This document shows, one piece after another, positions 4,093-38,267 of a DNA stretch of 64,000 bases. The translations under genes were made by a program, and so were the position numbers. The notes beneath the pieces were generated by a model. That model saw only the letters and a list, made by a program, of their open reading frames with translations, did not search any database and was not told where the DNA came from. Source of the DNA: Gammaproteobacteria bacterium (lineage in GTDB: Bacteria; Pseudomonadota; Gammaproteobacteria; Arenicellales; JAANXG01); assembly GCA_024639325.1 (NCBI GenBank), contig JAHEIO010000010.1:1-64000 (forward strand), given 5' to 3'. How positions within the stretch are numbered: position 1 is the first letter of the stretch; the number at the start of each line of letters is the position of its first letter.

Positions 4093-4695
4093 ATGATCAC
4101 CGAGGTGCTCGAGCGCGCCGGAAACCGCCTGCTCAGGCTTGATCCGGACACCGTAAAAAACCTTTCCCCGCTGCGGGGAAAGGTTTTCAAGATGGACATC
4201 GGTGTCGTCGACAAAGCGATCTTTATTGTTCCCGGTGAGGAAGGCCTGCAGGTTCGGGAAGACTGGCCGGGCGAAGTGGATATCACCTTGAGGGGGTCTC
4301 CGCTCGCTTTCCTGCAGTTCGGGCTGGGAGGAAAGAATCGTGATAACCGCGTTTTCATGGACAAGAAGCTCTCGATCGAGGGTGATGTGGAGCTTGCACA
4401 GGATTTTCAGAAGATTCTCAATGCAATCGACATTGACCTGGAGGAACTGTTTTCCCACTACGTGGGCGACGTCGCCGCGCATCAAGTCGGGCGCGGTGCG
4501 CGGCGGTTTCGCAGATGGCTCGGCGAGGTGGCGGAATCGTTTCGGCTCGATGTCGGGGAATACATGGTAGAAGAAGCCAGGATATTGGCGCCGGATTGGC
4601 GCGTCGATGAGTTCATCGAAAAGACGGATATCCTGAGGGCAGATGTGGACAGATTGGAACAGCGCGTGAAGCGATTGCGAAAACGAATCGAATAG
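4093..4695 (+). CDS. ubiJ: ubiquinone biosynthesis accessory factor, SCP2-domain protein
   Basis: SCP2-like domain and position between ubiE and ubiB. Confidence 0.85.
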   Translation: MITEVLERAGNRLLRLDPDTVKNLSPLRGKVFKMDIGVVDKAIFIVPGEEGLQVREDWPGEVDITLRGSPLAFLQFGLGGKNRDNRVFMDKKLSIEGDVELAQDFQKILNAIDIDLEELFSHYVGDVAAHQVGRGARRFRRWLGEVAESFRLDVGEYMVEEARILAPDWRVDEFIEKTDILRADVDRLEQRVKRLRKRIE

Positions 4696-19461: not shown

Positions 19462-20640
19462 TCAAGTGGACGGTGAGGGGGAAATCAAGTTGTCGGGATC
19501 CGGCAGGAATCGCTGCAACAAATCGTTGAGAAAACGGCGGCCGAATTCCGTTGTCGATATCTGAATCCCATCGAACTGTAAGAGCCCGTCAGTTTGCGCT
19601 TGCGCTATTGTGGAGCTGAATCGTTTGATGGGTTGACCGGTGCGTTGCTGAAACAGGGACGCCGTAACCGGGCGCTGCAGGCGCAGCGCGTTCAGCATGA
19701 ACTCGAAGCAGATCTCGTCGGATGAAAGCCGCTTCTCACCTCCCACCCGTTCCGCAGAGTGGGCATTTTGCATATACAGGATTGGATTTTTTCTTTTCCA
19801 CGTTCGTAATACCTGATCGTCCCGGGTCATCTTGCTGTGCGCACCTGCGCCGATGCCGATATAGTCACCAAATAGCCAGTAGTTCAGGTTGTGCTGGCAG
19901 GAACGACCTTGCCGTGCAAAAGCGGATACCTCATAGTTCGTGTACCCATTTTTCTCTAAACTGCTCTCGAGTTGCCGCTGCATCTGCCACGCCGCGTCCT
20001 CGCCCGGCAGCCTTGGCGTTCGCACCGCAAAAACCGTATTGGGTTCGATGGTGAGTTGGTAACAGGACAAATGGGGGGGGTCGAAAGACAGGGCCTGCTC
20101 GACATCATCCGCCGCCATCTCCCGGCTTTGTCCAGGAAGCGCGTACATCAAGTCCAGATTGAAGTTGTCGAATCCCGCTCTGATCGCCGCCGTCACCGCG
20201 TGGCGCGCGGCACGGTCATCGTGTATGCGACCGATGTTGCGGAGGGACGCGGCGTTGAAACTCTGTATGCCGATGGACAGACGGTTGACACCCGCGGCTC
20301 TGAGTCCCTCGAACTTGCCCGCATCCGAAGATCCGGGATTTGCCTCCAGAGTTATTTCCATATCGGTTGTGGCAGGGATGCGCGCCCGAATTCCGGCAAT
20401 GATCGATTCCACGCTTTTCGGGCTGAGCAGACTCGGGGTTCCTCCCCCGATGAAAATGCTGCGGAGTCTTCTACCCCGGACAGCCGGAAGTTCCTGATCC
20501 AGGTCGGCCATTAAGGCCTCGATATAGGCATTTTCCGGAGGCGGATTTTTCTGGGCGTGAGAATTGAAATCGCAGTACGGACACTTCTTTTCACACCAGG
20601 GCACGTGAACGTAAAGGGACAAAGGCAGGCTAGCCCGCAT
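19462..20640 (-). CDS. hemW: radical SAM heme chaperone HemW
   Basis: SLYVHVPWCEKKCPYCDFNSH (CxxxCxxC), SIFIGGGTPSLL; start codon ATGCGGGCTAG lies in a dispersed repeat. Confidence 0.95.
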   Translation of the reverse strand: MRASLPLSLYVHVPWCEKKCPYCDFNSHAQKNPPPENAYIEALMADLDQELPAVRGRRLRSIFIGGGTPSLLSPKSVESIIAGIRARIPATTDMEITLEANPGSSDAGKFEGLRAAGVNRLSIGIQSFNAASLRNIGRIHDDRAARHAVTAAIRAGFDNFNLDLMYALPGQSREMAADDVEQALSFDPPHLSCYQLTIEPNTVFAVRTPRLPGEDAAWQMQRQLESSLEKNGYTNYEVSAFARQGRSCQHNLNYWLFGDYIGIGAGAHSKMTRDDQVLRTWKRKNPILYMQNAHSAERVGGEKRLSSDEICFEFMLNALRLQRPVTASLFQQRTGQPIKRFSSTIAQAQTDGLLQFDGIQISTTEFGRRFLNDLLQRFLPDPDNLISPSPST

Positions 20641-31362: not shown

Positions 31363-31458
31363 CTAATTGCAAGTGTTTCCGCTTTTGGAAACGTAGATCC
31401 AATCATTTTTTGTTTCAATCAGCGTGCCGCCAAGATCGAGGAATAGCGCGCTTTTCAT
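31363..31458 (-). pseudogene. truncated HAD-family hydrolase N-terminus
   Basis: MKSALFLDLGGTLIETKNDWIYVSKSGNTCN* : HAD motif I (DLGGTL), then an early stop. Confidence 0.6.
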
Positions 31459-31604
31459 GATTCGGTTAGCTGAGGCACGGCCATTCTCCGTGTCCGCTCA
31501 TGGTGCGGGATTCCCGACAATGGCACGCAATCACGGGCCCCGGCTTCCCGGTTGCGCGATAGCGGACTTTTCGACAGAGGCGTTCGCCCGCTGGTCGATC
31601 ACCC

Positions 31605-31697
31605 CGAGGCGGTGTCGGACGCATCATCATCAGCGACGGTCGCACCGAGCACCCGCTGCGCGACGCGCTGGCCGGCGGCGGGACCTGGATCGAGTAA
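31605..31697 (+). pseudogene. C-terminal remnant of a LysZ/ArgB-like amino-acid kinase
   Basis: RGGVGRIIISDGRTEHPLRDALAGGGTWIE* with no body of the kinase upstream. Confidence 0.5.
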
Positions 31698-31955
31698 TTG
31701 AATACCTCGATCGACACGGAGCGGCGGCTCGCGCTCGAGGTCTACCCCAAGAGGGACATCTGCATCGTACGGGGCGAGGGTGCGCTGCTGTGGGACGACC
31801 AGGGTAACGAGTACATCGACTGTACCGCCGGCATCGGGATCGCCAATATCGGTTATGCCCGCCCCACGGTGGTGCGGCTGTTGCCGCCGCTGGCGATCAG
31901 TAAGGAACAGCTATCACGCGCGTGTGATGCGCCGCTTGCCTGTATGTCGCCCTGA
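31698..31955 (+). pseudogene. internally deleted LysJ/ArgD-like aminotransferase remnant
   Basis: N-terminal LALEVYPKRDICIVRGEGALLWDDQGNEYIDCTAGIGIANIGYA fused directly to C-terminal-like TVVRLLPPLAISKEQL. Confidence 0.7.
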
Positions 31956-31965
31956 AATATGCAGC

Positions 31966-32724
31966 TTAAACTTCGTGACTGCCAATGGGATATGTGTCTA
32001 ATGTGAAATTATTTTGAGGAATAATCCCGGTAAAAGCGCGCGTAAGGTGTTGGTAAATTGATGTGCTGAACTGGTTATAGGAAAGCCCTGTGAGAGTACC
32101 CGTGAATAACTGGTCAATGGCTGGAAAATTACTTTGTACCTTGATGCGATCATAAATACTCGCGATCAGGACCTGTAAGAGGTGGACGAGCAAATTGCCA
32201 TAGCCCTGGCTGCGATAGGCAGGGATGACATACAGCATCCTCAAATCAAACATGACATGAATATTGTGCGCTGTATCGTAGATTGAACAGTCAGAGACCG
32301 CATAGCCAATGGGGTCGGCGCCCGTTTCTTCGTTTGAGATCATCAACAACAGCCTTTGAGCGTCTGCTAGAGGCGGCAATAACGGATCAAGTAGAAATTC
32401 GATATGTTGGTTGTAGCTGGGGAATCCCCGAATAAAGTTGACACTGCTCTCAAAAGGATTGGGCCTATCCACATACTCCATTTCAGATGTCCTGATGTTG
32501 AAGAGCATAGCCTGTCGAAGAGTCGGTAAGGGGCCCAAAAAATTGAATACTGTTCTGGGCGCTTGAAGAATCCTTCGCAGGTGTGGGTGCTTGAGCAATA
32601 CAGGCAGGTATTCGCTCGGCGTCCTACTTTCAGGCAGGGTGGGGTTTGTCCTGCGGCATGGGATTGCCAATTGGCCAAAGACTATCGAATTATCTGCTCG
32701 GTCCAGTCTAAAACTATGATTCAT
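31966..32724 (-). CDS. putative GNAT-family N-acetyltransferase
   Basis: RMLYVIPAYRSQGYGNLLVHLLQVL resembles GNAT motif A. Confidence 0.6.
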   Translation of the reverse strand: MNHSFRLDRADNSIVFGQLAIPCRRTNPTLPESRTPSEYLPVLLKHPHLRRILQAPRTVFNFLGPLPTLRQAMLFNIRTSEMEYVDRPNPFESSVNFIRGFPSYNQHIEFLLDPLLPPLADAQRLLLMISNEETGADPIGYAVSDCSIYDTAHNIHVMFDLRMLYVIPAYRSQGYGNLLVHLLQVLIASIYDRIKVQSNFPAIDQLFTGTLTGLSYNQFSTSIYQHLTRAFTGIIPQNNFTLDTYPIGSHEV

Positions 32725-32888
32725 CGCGCAATTCCCGACAAACGGATTAATACTATAGATAAAAGTATAGACGTAAGGTATAAAAAAGCTGATGGAATAA
32801 AAATTAATTTAAATAACAATATGATACCGTTGTCACTTAAACTACACGTTTCAATCATGACCGGTTCCGCTGCCGGATTTGGAACCCC

Positions 32889-32936
32889 TAGCCCGCATTT
32901 CTCACCAGGATCCCGAGCGATGGCTCAGGACATTGA
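32889..32936 (+). repeat. dispersed intergenic repeat copy
   Basis: TAGCCCGCATTTCTCACCAGGATCCCGAGCGATGGCTCAGGACATTG. Confidence 0.7.
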
Positions 32937-32941
32937 CTTTT

Positions 32942-34180
32942 TCAACTATCCGTTGTGCCGGATAATGAGCGAATGTAGCCCGCCCGTTCGAGCCCCCATG
33001 ATGTCGCGCAGCCGATTACGAGGCCCCAAAAAGGCGCTCCAAGGTTGAATATCGGAACGTCCGCGAGGGTGACCAAAAATGTGATCAGCGCACCCAAAGT
33101 GCACCTGCCCCCAAATGCGGTGGTCATCGACGTCTGCAGCACGCGCAGCATGGCCAATCCCGCCAACGTTGCTATAAAGGCCGGCGGCGAGGCCAGCATC
33201 ATGCTGGTGAACAGCGGCGAAAACAAACCGAACAGCAATCCCAAAAGGGCGACGAAAATGCCTGCGGTGTACTGACGATGGTGTTCGCCTGACGCAGAGA
33301 TCAGCGCGTTGACCGGGCCGGTCAGACAGGTGGAGACCGTGCCGAGTGAGGCAGTCAGAAGCGAGACGCCGCCACAGGCGACGGTGACCGCGTTGATGGG
33401 TGGATCGTGCTGCGCGGCTTGCAGGATGGCGAAACCCTGCCCGTTTTGTACCACGATCACGGTGATCGCCAACGGCACGACGAGTTCGACCATCGCCGCA
33501 ATGGAGAATTCCGGCCGTATGAAAGTCGGAGGCACCAGGGCCAGTTGGACGTCGCCGCCGACGTCGAACGCGCCGGTGATGGTGATCGCCGCGACGCCGA
33601 CGACTAGGGCGCCGATCAGGGGCGGCAGCACTCGCCCGAGCGGAACGACAAGGCTCAAGACGATGAATGCGGCGCACATCGGCGCCGCGATCGCGAATCC
33701 ATCGCGGACGGCGAATACGAGATCCAGGCCGAACTGAAGGAATACTCCGGCCACCATGGCCATGACGATCGGCATGGGAACAATATTCATGGCGCGTCGT
33801 ACCCAGCCGCTCAGCCCCAAGGCCAACATCAGCGCACCGGTGGCAATGAAGGCACCGACGACCTCGGCAAAACTCAAGTGGGTCAGAGCGGCCCCGACCA
33901 GCACCGTGCCGGGAATGGTCCAGAAGAACACCATGGGTTTGCGATAAAGGACGCAAAATACGATGCTCAGTATTGAATTGAAAAAGAACGCGCCGAATAT
34001 CCAAGAGGATAATTGCACCTGATCGAGGCCGCCGCGGCTTCCCATGGTGAGGATGATAGCCACCGGACCGGAAGCGGCAAAAATAAAGCCGATCAGGCCA
34101 TTGACGCCATACGGCAATCCGAAGTCCCGCAAAACCTCCCGCAACGTCGGGAGCGGGCGGTTGATTCTTTCAAGAGTCAT
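32942..34180 (-). CDS. BenE-family benzoate/H+ symporter-like transporter
   Basis: 12-TM pattern; LPTLREVLRDFGLPYGVNGLIGFIFAASGPVAIIL; FFWTIPGTVLVGAAL. Confidence 0.88.
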   Translation of the reverse strand: MTLERINRPLPTLREVLRDFGLPYGVNGLIGFIFAASGPVAIILTMGSRGGLDQVQLSSWIFGAFFFNSILSIVFCVLYRKPMVFFWTIPGTVLVGAALTHLSFAEVVGAFIATGALMLALGLSGWVRRAMNIVPMPIVMAMVAGVFLQFGLDLVFAVRDGFAIAAPMCAAFIVLSLVVPLGRVLPPLIGALVVGVAAITITGAFDVGGDVQLALVPPTFIRPEFSIAAMVELVVPLAITVIVVQNGQGFAILQAAQHDPPINAVTVACGGVSLLTASLGTVSTCLTGPVNALISASGEHHRQYTAGIFVALLGLLFGLFSPLFTSMMLASPPAFIATLAGLAMLRVLQTSMTTAFGGRCTLGALITFLVTLADVPIFNLGAPFWGLVIGCATSWGLERAGYIRSLSGTTDS

Positions 34181-34325
34181 TACCGGCAGCAGTCCTGGAA
34201 CCCGACAGCAACGCCAATATCAGCAGCATCGTGTTACACGGCTCATCCCCGGAAGAGGAAGATACACATGCGCGTTTTGTGTAAATCTCATCGCATTGAC
34301 GCGGCCGGTCTGTCAATCCGCATGT

Positions 34326-34997
34326 TCACCGGTTGAAAAATTCCGGGCCAAAAACCAACACCGTCAACGGTACGGGAGAAACGGCTATGGCAATGGTCAC
34401 AAGAAACCCGGTAACCGAATAGAATTTACTGATTCCAGCCATCAAAGCGATGCCGCCGCCTCCACCAAGCAGGATATTCCCAGGCAGATTAATCATTAAT
34501 GCGAGCGCAATGTAACGGTATCGGAGTAGAAATGGAATCAATCGGTTCGGCGCCTTGGCGACGACGAACGCTAACCGCTCGTCGGTATTCATCGGCCGGA
34601 TTGATTCGAGCAGTTGGCTGGTTCGCCGAAAATTGAGCTCGCCAAGGAACTTTATGAGGACGTCCAGCGGAACCAAACGTCCGATAAGGAAACTCAGCGA
34701 AAGGCCGGTGAGTGTGCAAAGGTAAACCAGAATTACGATCCCGGGTCCCAACATTGCAATCAGGGCAAGTCCAACCTCGGCCCCGGGGACGAAAGGGATC
34801 GCGAGCAGTAGCGCATACGCGACCGCGGTGATCATTACGGTTCGATGAACCAGATCTTCGTTGCTGGGGCGAATTTGGAAGTTGAGGGCGTCGGCAAGCC
34901 AAACGGCGACGAAATTGGCCCCCACGATTAACAGAGCAAGGCAGGCGAACTTGAACAGCGCGGACCATGGCCACCCCCCGGCGGGCCGGTTGAACAC
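34326..34997 (-). CDS. uncharacterised multi-TM membrane protein (probable GTG start at 34997)
   Basis: Several TM segments; NLPGNILLGGGGGIALMAG; the ORF-track start (35279) overlaps gmk and is unlikely. Confidence 0.6.
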   Translation of the reverse strand: MFNRPAGGWPWSALFKFACLALLIVGANFVAVWLADALNFQIRPSNEDLVHRTVMITAVAYALLLAIPFVPGAEVGLALIAMLGPGIVILVYLCTLTGLSLSFLIGRLVPLDVLIKFLGELNFRRTSQLLESIRPMNTDERLAFVVAKAPNRLIPFLLRYRYIALALMINLPGNILLGGGGGIALMAGISKFYSVTGFLVTIAIAVSPVPLTVLVFGPEFFNR

Positions 34998-35187
34998 TGG
35001 CGTATTATTGAACGCTGGAGAGTGGCACGGTGAGAAAAGCCTACAGCATCCACGGCATGAATTCAAAACGCGGTATTTCGGTAAGTATCTGCGTTCCGAT
35101 CGGGATCGACTGCTAATCTGCCGGATCAATAGGCTATAATTGGGTTTCTGTCCCTCCCCCTCGCTTTTGTAAGGTGTAGTTTTCATC

Positions 35188-35772
35188 ATGCCGTATGGAC
35201 GGGTTTTCATAATTTCTGCACCTTCCGGCGCAGGCAAGACAACGCTTGCAAGGCGACTCATGGTTGAGGTTGCGAACACCGTCCTGGCTGTGTCACATAC
35301 GACGCGGCGCAGGCGGCCCGGGGAAACAGATGGCGCGGATTATTTTTTTGTGGATCGCGCCAGGTTTGAGACGATGATAGCTGCCGGGGAGTTTCTGGAA
35401 TATGCGGAAGTTTTCGGCAACCTGTACGGCACTTCGAGGGGCGAGGTGGAGCGGCTGTCGAGAGCGGGCCGGAATGTGCTTCTCGACATCGACTGGCAGG
35501 GTGCCCGAAAGGTACGGGAATGGATTCCGCAGGTGCAAAGCATATTCATACTGCCGCCGTCCAGGAGCGAATTGGAGCGAAGACTGCGTGTACGAGGCCA
35601 GGATTCGGACGAAGTCATCTCCAGACGGATGCAGGAGGCGGACGACGAAATGAGTCACAGTGACGAATACGATCACAGGATCGTCAACGACGACCTGGAC
35701 AAAACCATGGATGAGCTGCGCGCTATCATTTCCGGGCCTGTAGCTGACGCAAGAAAGGTTACAATGAAGTAG
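35188..35772 (+). CDS. gmk: guanylate kinase
   Basis: SAPSGAGKTTLARRL, SHTTRRRRPGETDGADYFF. Confidence 0.97.
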   Translation: MPYGRVFIISAPSGAGKTTLARRLMVEVANTVLAVSHTTRRRRPGETDGADYFFVDRARFETMIAAGEFLEYAEVFGNLYGTSRGEVERLSRAGRNVLLDIDWQGARKVREWIPQVQSIFILPPSRSELERRLRVRGQDSDEVISRRMQEADDEMSHSDEYDHRIVNDDLDKTMDELRAIISGPVADARKVTMK

Positions 35773-35818
35773 CGGCTTTTTTACGCCGCAATAACATCAG
35801 CAATATATGAGGTACTGA

Positions 35819-36115
35819 ATGGCGAGAATTACCGTAGAAGATTGTCTCGAGCATGTCGACAACCGTTTCCAGCTGGTTCTGGTCGCCACAAAACGCGCCC
35901 GCCAGCTCTCGGACGGTGCGGAGCCCTTGGTCGAAGTCGAAAATGACAAGCACACCGTGATTGCCCTGCGGGAGATCGCGGCAGGGCTGGTGACAAAGGC
36001 AATCCTCGATGACAAACCGACACTCGAACTGGACGAGTTCGAATCATTATCCGAAGGTACGGAGGAGGCCGAAGGGGATGCAGATCCCGATCCTTCGGAG
36101 GAAACCACCGCGTAG
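35819..36115 (+). CDS. rpoZ: RNA polymerase omega subunit
   Basis: [30 protein letters not shown]. Confidence 0.97.
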
Positions 36116-38267
36116 TCCGAGTCAGCGGCTGCCGTCGCATGCTCCGGCAAGTTCAGCGATCGCGCTTTGCGACGCCCTGCGGGGGTATCTCGACGACCAA
36201 ATCGTAGACCAGGTATACAAGGCGTACCTGTTCGGCGCCGAGGCCCACGCCGGACAGCAGCGACGGAGTGGTGAACCCTATATTCACCACCCCGTGGCGG
36301 TAGCTGAAATCCTGACCGGATTGAAGCTGGACAGCCGCAGCATAATTGCGGCAATTCTGCACGACGTAATCGAGGACACCTCGACGGCCAAGGAGGAGCT
36401 GGAAGCCGAGTTCGGTGAGGAAGTGGCGCTGCTGGTCGACGGCGTAAGCAAGATCGGGCAGATCGAATTCGACAGCAAGGAGCACGCCGAGGCGGAGAAC
36501 TTTCGCAAGATGCTGATGGCGATGTCCAAGGACATCCGCGTCATTTTGATTAAACTCGCCGACCGGCTGCACAATATGCGAACTCTGGATGCGCTGCCCC
36601 TTCAGAAACGCCGTCGTGTGGCACGACAGACCATGGATATCTACGCGCCCATTGCAAATCGTCTGGGCCTGCATCAATGGAGCCGCGAGTTGCAGGACCT
36701 GAGTTTCCATTACCTTTATCCCAATCGACACGCTGCCATCGAACGGGCTATAAAGACGCAGCAGGGCAATAGGAAGTCGGTGGTCAAGAAACTCCAATCC
36801 GCCATTAAAGCCGAGCTCAAGAGTTCCGGGGTCAGCGCCGAGGTCATCGGGCGCAAAAAGAGCGTGTACAGCATTTACCTGAAGATGCTGGAAAAGAGAA
36901 AGGCATTCAAGGAATTGCAGGACATCTATGGCTTTCGCATCATCGTCGACGCGCTCGATGACTGTTATCGCGTCCTGGGCATCATCCACCGCCTGTATAA
37001 ACCGATCCCGGGACGTTTCCAGGACTATATTGCGATACCCAAGACCAACGGCTACCAGTCCCTGCATACCGTCGTGTTCGGCGCTTTCGGCGCGTCCCTG
37101 GAGGTGCAGATCCGGACCGTCGAAATGAACCGGGTCGCCGAGGCCGGAATTGCCGCACATTGGATCTACAAGTCCGAAAACGTGACCGGCGTGAAGGCGC
37201 AGGAGCTTGCTCGGCAGTGGCTGCTGGATCTGCTCGATACCCAGAAAGCGAGCGGCAACCCCGGCGAGTTCCTGGAACATCTGAAAATGGACCTGTTTCC
37301 GGACGAGGTGTATGTGTTCACGCACCAGGGAGACATAAAGAAATTACCGCGAGGTTGCACCGCGCTGGATTTCGCCTATGCGGTGCACACCGACGTCGGG
37401 AATCAGTGTGCCGGCGTGCGGGTGAATCAGGAGCTCGTTTCACTGCCTACGGTTTTGCAGAACGGTGATCATGTCGAAATCATCACATCGGGCAATGCCA
37501 GGCCCACGGCGTCGTGGCTGAACTATACGGTAACCAGCAAGGCGCGCGCCTCGATTCGCCACTATCTCAAAAGGCAGCAGGGCCGTGAGGCGGTAAAGCT
37601 GGGCAAGCGGTTACTCGTCCGCGCGGTGAAGAAAAGCAGCGTCGGTAAGATCAAGTTGACCAACAAGGTCAAGAAAGAGCTGCTGGAGAATCTGCGGGTC
37701 GAGAGTTGGGACAAGCTTCTGGAAGACATCGGCCTGGGCAAACGACTGCCAACGATGGTGGCCAATCAGATCGCATCCAACAAGCGCAAGAAAGAGGGCC
37801 GGTCGCAGCAGGAAGGGGCCGAGAAGCCCCTTGCGATCGACGGCGCCGAGGGCATGCTGATCACCTTCGCGCGTTGTTGCAGCCCGGTGCCCGGGGATAA
37901 TATCGTAGGATTCCTGAGTGCCGGGCGGGGCATCGTGGTTCACATGTTCGACTGCCGCAACATCGCGGAATATCGAAAACATCCGGACAAGTGGGTGCAC
38001 GTAGACTGGGCCGAAAAAGTGAAAGGCTTTTTTTCGGTAAACATTCGGGTGGATACCGAGAACAAGCGGGGCGTGCTGGCGAACGTTGCCACCGCGATAG
38101 CGGAACAGGATTCGAACATCAACAATGTGAATGTCGAGGAGCGCGACGGCAGTTTTTCGACTATGAGGCTCAGCATCGAAGTCAAAGACCGCATCAATCT
38201 TGCACGGATCCTGAGGAGCATACGGCGTGTACGTGGCGTGTACCGTGTGGCGCGCGCCAAAGGCTGA
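36078..38267 (+). CDS. spoT: RelA/SpoT bifunctional (p)ppGpp synthetase/hydrolase (start uncertain)
   Basis: HD domain [23 protein letters not shown], synthetase, TGS and ACT domains; rpoZ-spoT order. Confidence 0.95.

Follow-up and report, generated by a model that had tools for sequence, protein, structure and literature searches.

The window analysed here, a stretch of 64,000 nucleotides (positions 1 to 64,000 of contig JAHEIO010000010.1, assembly GCA_024639325.1) from a gammaproteobacterium of the order Arenicellales, holds at 31603-31955 the remnant of a decayed LysW-type operon, consisting of what is left of lysZ and lysJ (Table 1). The first fragment, which reads RGGVGRIIISDGRTEHPLRDALAGGGTWIE from 31605 to 31694 on the forward strand and is followed by a stop codon, has [LysW]-aminoadipate kinase as its top model and covers positions 239-266 of 267. 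The second consists of the N-terminal ~53 codons of an aminotransferase gene fused in frame to its C-terminal ~32 codons, giving 85 amino acids versus ~385; it matches Pfam Aminotran_3 (E 3e-10), and LysJ_Th_th outscores argD (E 1.1e-13). The original prediction had recognized a LysZ-type kinase C-terminus and a LysJ-like aminotransferase remnant, and both identifications are confirmed, with the start of the kinase piece corrected to 31603. Best matches to the ordinary ArgB and ArgD had been named beforehand as the result that would refute it, and the profile search of the fragments did not return them; remnants of ordinary ArgB/ArgD genes are ruled out by the family scores and by synteny with a relative. 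A recent plasmid-borne transfer was also rejected, as distant blastn against plasmids yielded only one 55-base match.

Table 1. Features at the relic locus (window coordinates; L016 is the homologous contig of a relative)
Feature	Position	Strand	Evidence
HAD-type phosphatase N-terminus-like remnant, 31 codons, beginning MKSALFLDLGGTLIE and ending in a stop	31363..31458	-	Translation; assigned by motif only
Left breakpoint	31600..31606		Operon homology ends; lysW, lysX, lysY, GAT and most of lysZ absent
lysZ C-terminal remnant ([LysW]-aminoadipate kinase)	31603..31697	+	Stop 31695-31697; NCBIfam NF010659, E 1.8e-6
lysZ remnant, DNA comparison	31603 onward	+	96% identical to L016 from 3286
lysJ remnant	31698..31955	+	NF042418 LysJ_Th_th, E 4.5e-19; halves align to both ends of L016 lysJ
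lysJ internal deletion junction	31856..31873		Overlapping left/right alignments to L016:3565 and L016:4537
Right flanking gene, weak GNAT acetyltransferase match	31966..32724	-	Common to L016 (synteny)

A fuller version of this operon is found at the matching site of contig CAMYOI010000259.1 (L016), from the uncultured gammaproteobacterium FCS_Gamma_070, a member of the same genus. L016 aligns to 31603-31881 of the window and then, from the end of lysJ onward, to 31856-37378, with 96% identity in each case. Its gene order is lysW-lysX-lysY-GAT-lysZ-lysJ, in which only the end of lysW is preserved, truncated by the contig edge, and GAT encodes a small protein, the EgtC-like putative hydrolase considered below. 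The profile scores are 335 bits for lysX (TIGR02144), 321 bits for lysY/argC and 252 bits for lysZ (NF010659). That the remaining operon genes occur at this site in L016 supports the proposal that the window fragments are relics of a LysW-type operon; all operon parts upstream of 31603 (L016:3286) have been removed from the window. Alignment of both lysJ ends to L016 also bears out the claim that the middle of this gene was lost in frame, by a deletion of ~0.9-1.0 kb that, in this comparison, lies at a short GC-rich microhomology (GCCC). Since both loci are homologous and have 96% identical flanks, the loss of the LysJ middle is a real difference between them. An intact operon in a relative was thus found only in part: the operon is present in L016, and its lysJ is damaged, by a 108-bp in-frame tandem duplication (4175-4390, copies 95% identical) and by an in-frame stop at codon 328 (4362). 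Both genus members known to carry the operon show it in decay, and the two other genomes of the genus are without LysW. Next to the left breakpoint, the reverse-strand remnant is inferred to be a second broken gene, whose HAD identity depends on a motif alone; it suggests that deletions arise readily between the YicC-like gene and the guanylate kinase-like gene. Separately, short DNA repeats are common to L016:5573-5617 and window positions 20630, 21989 and 24649 (84-97% over 30-45 bases), and are possibly a dispersed intergenic repeat.

The genome to which the window belongs is 95.6% complete. No match to LysW at E<=0.1 was obtained in the whole of it, which agrees with a relic, and no LysZ either; the single ArgB/LysZ match sits elsewhere and scores as a true ArgB, and full-length ArgD-type aminotransferases are encoded at other sites. 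The locus is considered a relic because LysW and LysZ are not encoded elsewhere in the genome, and, with only ArgB-type and ArgD-type genes at other sites, we conclude that this organism has lost the pathway. The assembly comprises 352 contigs and comes without reads, and an internal junction error cannot be excluded, so that the lysJ deletion could in principle be a metagenome assembly artefact, with the operon intact in the organism. We give this possibility hardly any weight, because the right flank runs in the same order as in the relative, both lysJ ends occur in order with consistent flanks, LysW and LysZ are missing from the entire assembly, and the lysJ gene of L016 is broken as well.

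It had also been anticipated that such a pathway would be unexpected in a gammaproteobacterium, and this part of the original prediction did not hold. LysW was detected in 42 of the 109 genomes of the order, or 41 when genome G086 is left out, which rules out that the pathway is rare in this order. TIGR01206 is above its cut-off in 40 of the 109 (the L016 copy being cut by the contig edge), and PF21344 is also matched. When order was scored as far as the contig or the fetched stretch reached, the arrangement lysW-lysX-lysY-GAT-lysZ-lysJ was observed in all 38 operons of the order readable past lysY. LysX, LysZ, LysY and LysJ genes are all present in these operons, of which the window keeps only scraps of lysZ and lysJ, while the flanking genes vary between families. 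The same block occurs in Ignavibacteria/Melioribacter-type genomes, in an acidobacterial genome and in others, and in Melioribacter-type operons a homocitrate synthase gene sits between lysW and lysX. No lysine riboswitch or other RNA control was found in 11 operon loci or in the window.

Several further carrier and ligase genes were also recorded. The LysW-like carrier of G086 (L164, G086:C4) has a different tail, EELWDE, and no known LysW operon genes nearby, and possibly belongs to another amino-group carrier system. In Chloroflexota, tandem lysW pairs with near-identical tails occur in several genomes (at L177, L178 and L194), and genome G173 has three copies. Finally, genome G070 holds two tandem lysX genes (L031:3780-5488), the second without the NTARGA motif, which are possibly separate lysine and arginine ligases acting on one carrier.

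The feature that sets these operons apart is GAT, the fourth gene. All 38 readable operons of the order have it between lysY and lysZ, and so do operons of Ignavibacteria/Melioribacter-type and acidobacterial genomes. LysK was searched for with TIGR01902 (cut-off 163 bits) in 22 genomes, 20 with GAT and 2 Chloroflexota without it. None of the 20 GAT genomes has a LysK above the cut-off, the best score being 96 bits; both GAT-less Chloroflexota genomes, which encode LysX, LysY, LysZ and LysJ, do have it, at 316 and 298 bits. GAT is also missing from 20 further Chloroflexota LysW neighbourhoods, 9 of which have LysK nearby. GAT and LysK are thus mutually exclusive in the genomes tested, and the operon belongs to the LysW pathway solely as a variant without LysK. 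The absence of GAT from 399 evenly drawn Pseudomonadota genomes shows little, as this sample had no positive control.

M20 peptidases of other kinds (ArgE/DapE-like, scoring up to 96 bits) are encoded in most GAT genomes and could account for product release, which is a point against GAT as the releasing enzyme. In G070, a GAT-containing genome whose completeness is not known, neither LysA nor an M20 match at E<=1e-10 was obtained and LysZ of the operon is the only ArgB-type match, and therefore some other enzyme must release the product there; no M20 match was obtained in G067 either.

The second distinctive feature concerns the carrier. Known LysW proteins end in EDWGE, the last Glu holding the substrate, and in Natrinema arginine is no longer made when this Glu is replaced by Ala (E54A; PMC10433800). 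LysW of the order is likewise a zinc ribbon with an EDWG tail. The last lysW codon in 51 GAT operons encodes Glu in 34 and Gln in 17 (CAA in 10, CAG in 7), and no other residue, even though six other outcomes (Lys, Ala, Gly, Val, Asp and stop) are one base away and were never seen at this position. The LysX+LysY+GAT tree requires at least seven Glu/Gln switches. Gln-ended carriers are encoded by G040, a genome assembled in one contig, by the nearest relative of the window (G001, contig L016) and by the isolate Stygiobacter electus. All Chloroflexota carriers read directly end in Glu; nearly all of the Chloroflexota matches listed reach model position 54, and those of the Gln-ended carriers stop at 53. 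With Gln tails only alongside GAT and only Glu in Chloroflexota, a Gln tail is thus tolerated where GAT is present and has not been seen where it is absent. A Gln-ended carrier would need deamidation to obtain its Glu attachment residue.no description of such a LysW was found in open-access papers (subscription papers not covered).

One explanation of these data is that GAT only matures the Gln-ended LysW, acting as a Dop-like deamidase, and that product release falls to an M20 peptidase encoded elsewhere on the chromosome, for example ArgE or DapE. The M20 peptidases of most GAT genomes agree with it, and so does the need of Gln carriers for a deamidase if LysX requires Glu, as the inactive E54A carrier of Natrinema indicates (PMC10433800). 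Nevertheless, GAT is equally conserved with the Glu-ended LysW of 34 of the 51 operons, where no deamidase is needed, so that deamidation cannot be the only or essential role of GAT. G070 (at E<=1e-10) and G067, moreover, lack an M20 match. We regard this explanation as improbable, though it is the strongest of the competing ones.

The predicted structure of GAT (an AlphaFold, AF2, model with a pLDDT of 90.4) has as its best PDB matches only EgtC entries, the Ntn hydrolase of ergothioneine synthesis (4zfj, 4zfk and 4zfl), with E 7e-13, TM 0.75 and 20% identity against 4zfl. On this model, GAT is an EgtC-like class-II (Ntn) glutaminase-fold protein. It shares with EgtC an N-terminal Cys as well as a conserved Arg and an Asn-Gly pair. 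The reaction catalysed by EgtC is the cleavage of a gamma-glutamyl amide, by which the gamma-glutamyl group is removed. The name EgtC is, however, ruled out by the equivalog cut-off of TIGR03442 (35.8 and 46.4 bits versus 218.65), and the substrate predicted for GAT is a protein C-terminus. GAT also resembles the class-II glutaminases YafJ (HHalign 98.4%) and GlmS, with which it has in common the catalytic Cys, Arg and Asn-Gly. All 49 GAT sequences have Cys2, Arg76 and Asn102-Gly103, which, by comparison with GlmS, we take to serve as nucleophile, as ligand of the alpha-carboxylate and as oxyanion site, respectively. In contrast to YafJ and GlmS, GAT has IGAE in place of TDSE/TDTE, has no synthase domain and sits in a LysW operon. 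The Asp of this motif, which in GlmS (TDTE) binds the free alpha-amine of glutamine, corresponds in the YafJ alignment to Gly117 in all 49 sequences, a correspondence that relies on sequence alignment and not on the structure of a complex. At the C-terminus of a protein, the alpha-carboxylate of Glu or Gln is free but its alpha-amine is not, and the residue pattern would therefore fit the LysW tail, with its Glu or Gln in a peptide bond, as the substrate.

The same observations bear on whether GAT could be an ordinary glutaminase or amidotransferase that gives ammonia to another enzyme of the pathway or of the cell. Its class-II glutaminase fold would allow such a role, which is nonetheless very unlikely: the operon lacks a synthase partner (LysJ being a PLP transaminase), the Asp for the alpha-amine of free glutamine is lost in 49 of 49 sequences, and GAT is strictly linked to LysW and excludes LysK.

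Based on these data, we propose that GAT acts on the carrier as a gamma-glutamyl amidase, taking the place of LysK and, like Dop, deamidating the Gln-ended LysW. The window holds a decayed copy of the six-gene operon. The relic, the gene content, the absence of LysK, the Gln/Glu switching and the residue conservation were observed directly; both activities of GAT, its substrate and its product are inferred, and we hold the proposal as a whole to be likely. In intact copies, LysX would link the amino group of an amino dicarboxylic acid (probably alpha-aminoadipate) to LysW, at the gamma-carboxyl of its C-terminal Glu, and LysZ, LysY and LysJ would then convert the distal carboxyl of the attached acid into an amine. 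GAT, as a hydrolase with an N-terminal cysteine, would cleave the gamma-glutamyl amide, freeing the product in the stead of LysK, and may also turn LysW-Gln into the loadable LysW-Glu, because the same chemistry hydrolyses a C-terminal glutamine. Such deamidation would make the choice between an encoded Glu and an encoded Gln nearly neutral, and would therefore explain the repeated switching.

The cysteine-based acyl-enzyme chemistry and the Gln-ended carriers are also compatible with a transamidase, in which the cysteine would form an acyl-enzyme with LysW-Gln and then transfer the carrier onto the amino acid to be attached, an ATP-independent way of loading. There is scarcely any room for this mechanism, given that all operons of the order retain LysX, that the LysX sequences read contain the GSWGR carrier-binding motif, and that Glu-ended carriers could not be loaded by that route.

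Regarding the product of the pathway as we propose it, with GAT as hydrolase, the LysX motifs are informative: residues that differ between the aminoadipate type (NSVHT in Thermus) and the ArgX of Sulfolobus (Gly-Phe) have been described (PMC10433800). LysX of the order shows NSI[D/E/x] where readable, at a position inferred from alignment, which is the AAA-type signature (Asn-Ser/Thr) and not the Gly-Phe of ArgX. Lysine from aminoadipate is inferred to be the likeliest product, a reading that the homocitrate synthase of Melioribacter-type operons supports there. It is weaker for the gammaproteobacterial GAT genomes, in which the search for homocitrate synthase gave only LeuA-like matches (~30%). 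These genomes retain ArgB and, in most cases, LysA (weakly matched in G013), which rules out, for most of them, that lysine or arginine is made by way of the operon alone. This redundancy with ArgB and LysA may explain why the lineage of the window was able to lose the operon.

Compared with the LysW pathway of Thermus, Sulfolobus, Thermococcus and haloarchaea, the operons studied here share the zinc-ribbon LysW with its EDWG tail and the LysX, LysZ, LysY/ArgC and LysJ-type genes. They differ in having the gene for an EgtC-like hydrolase instead of LysK, in the Gln-ended carrier of a third of them and, in the gammaproteobacterial versions, in the lack of homocitrate synthase. No open-access paper was found that joins LysW with a glutamine amidotransferase, and none of those consulted describes a LysW ending in Gln (subscription papers not covered). 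A parallel is provided by Pup, a small carrier whose gene likewise specifies Gln or Glu as the last residue, and Dop, which both deamidates Pup and cleaves the isopeptide bond (PMC8599861), the two jobs proposed here for GAT. This resemblance is an analogy only, since Dop is glutamine-synthetase-like and unrelated to the Ntn fold of GAT, and Pup tags proteins for degradation, whereas LysW carries a metabolite. With somewhat less assurance than for the function of GAT itself, we favour the idea that these operons represent a separate branch of the LysW pathway that extends across several phyla and in which one EgtC-type cysteine hydrolase would deamidate the Gln carrier and release the amino acid, as an independent counterpart of Pup/Dop in primary metabolism.

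LysK and the C-terminal Glu have been treated as fixed parts of carrier-protein lysine and arginine synthesis. If GAT does both jobs, LysK would be replaceable by an unrelated enzyme, and annotation tools that demand LysK would miss the pathway. In Caldithrix abyssi, which has a LysWXZYJ-Hcs locus, it has been suggested that the lysine pathway may involve a non-orthologous displacement (PMC5317091), and in that case this gap may be filled by GAT. The logic of a carrier encoded with Gln, as known from Pup and Dop, would then have arisen a second time.
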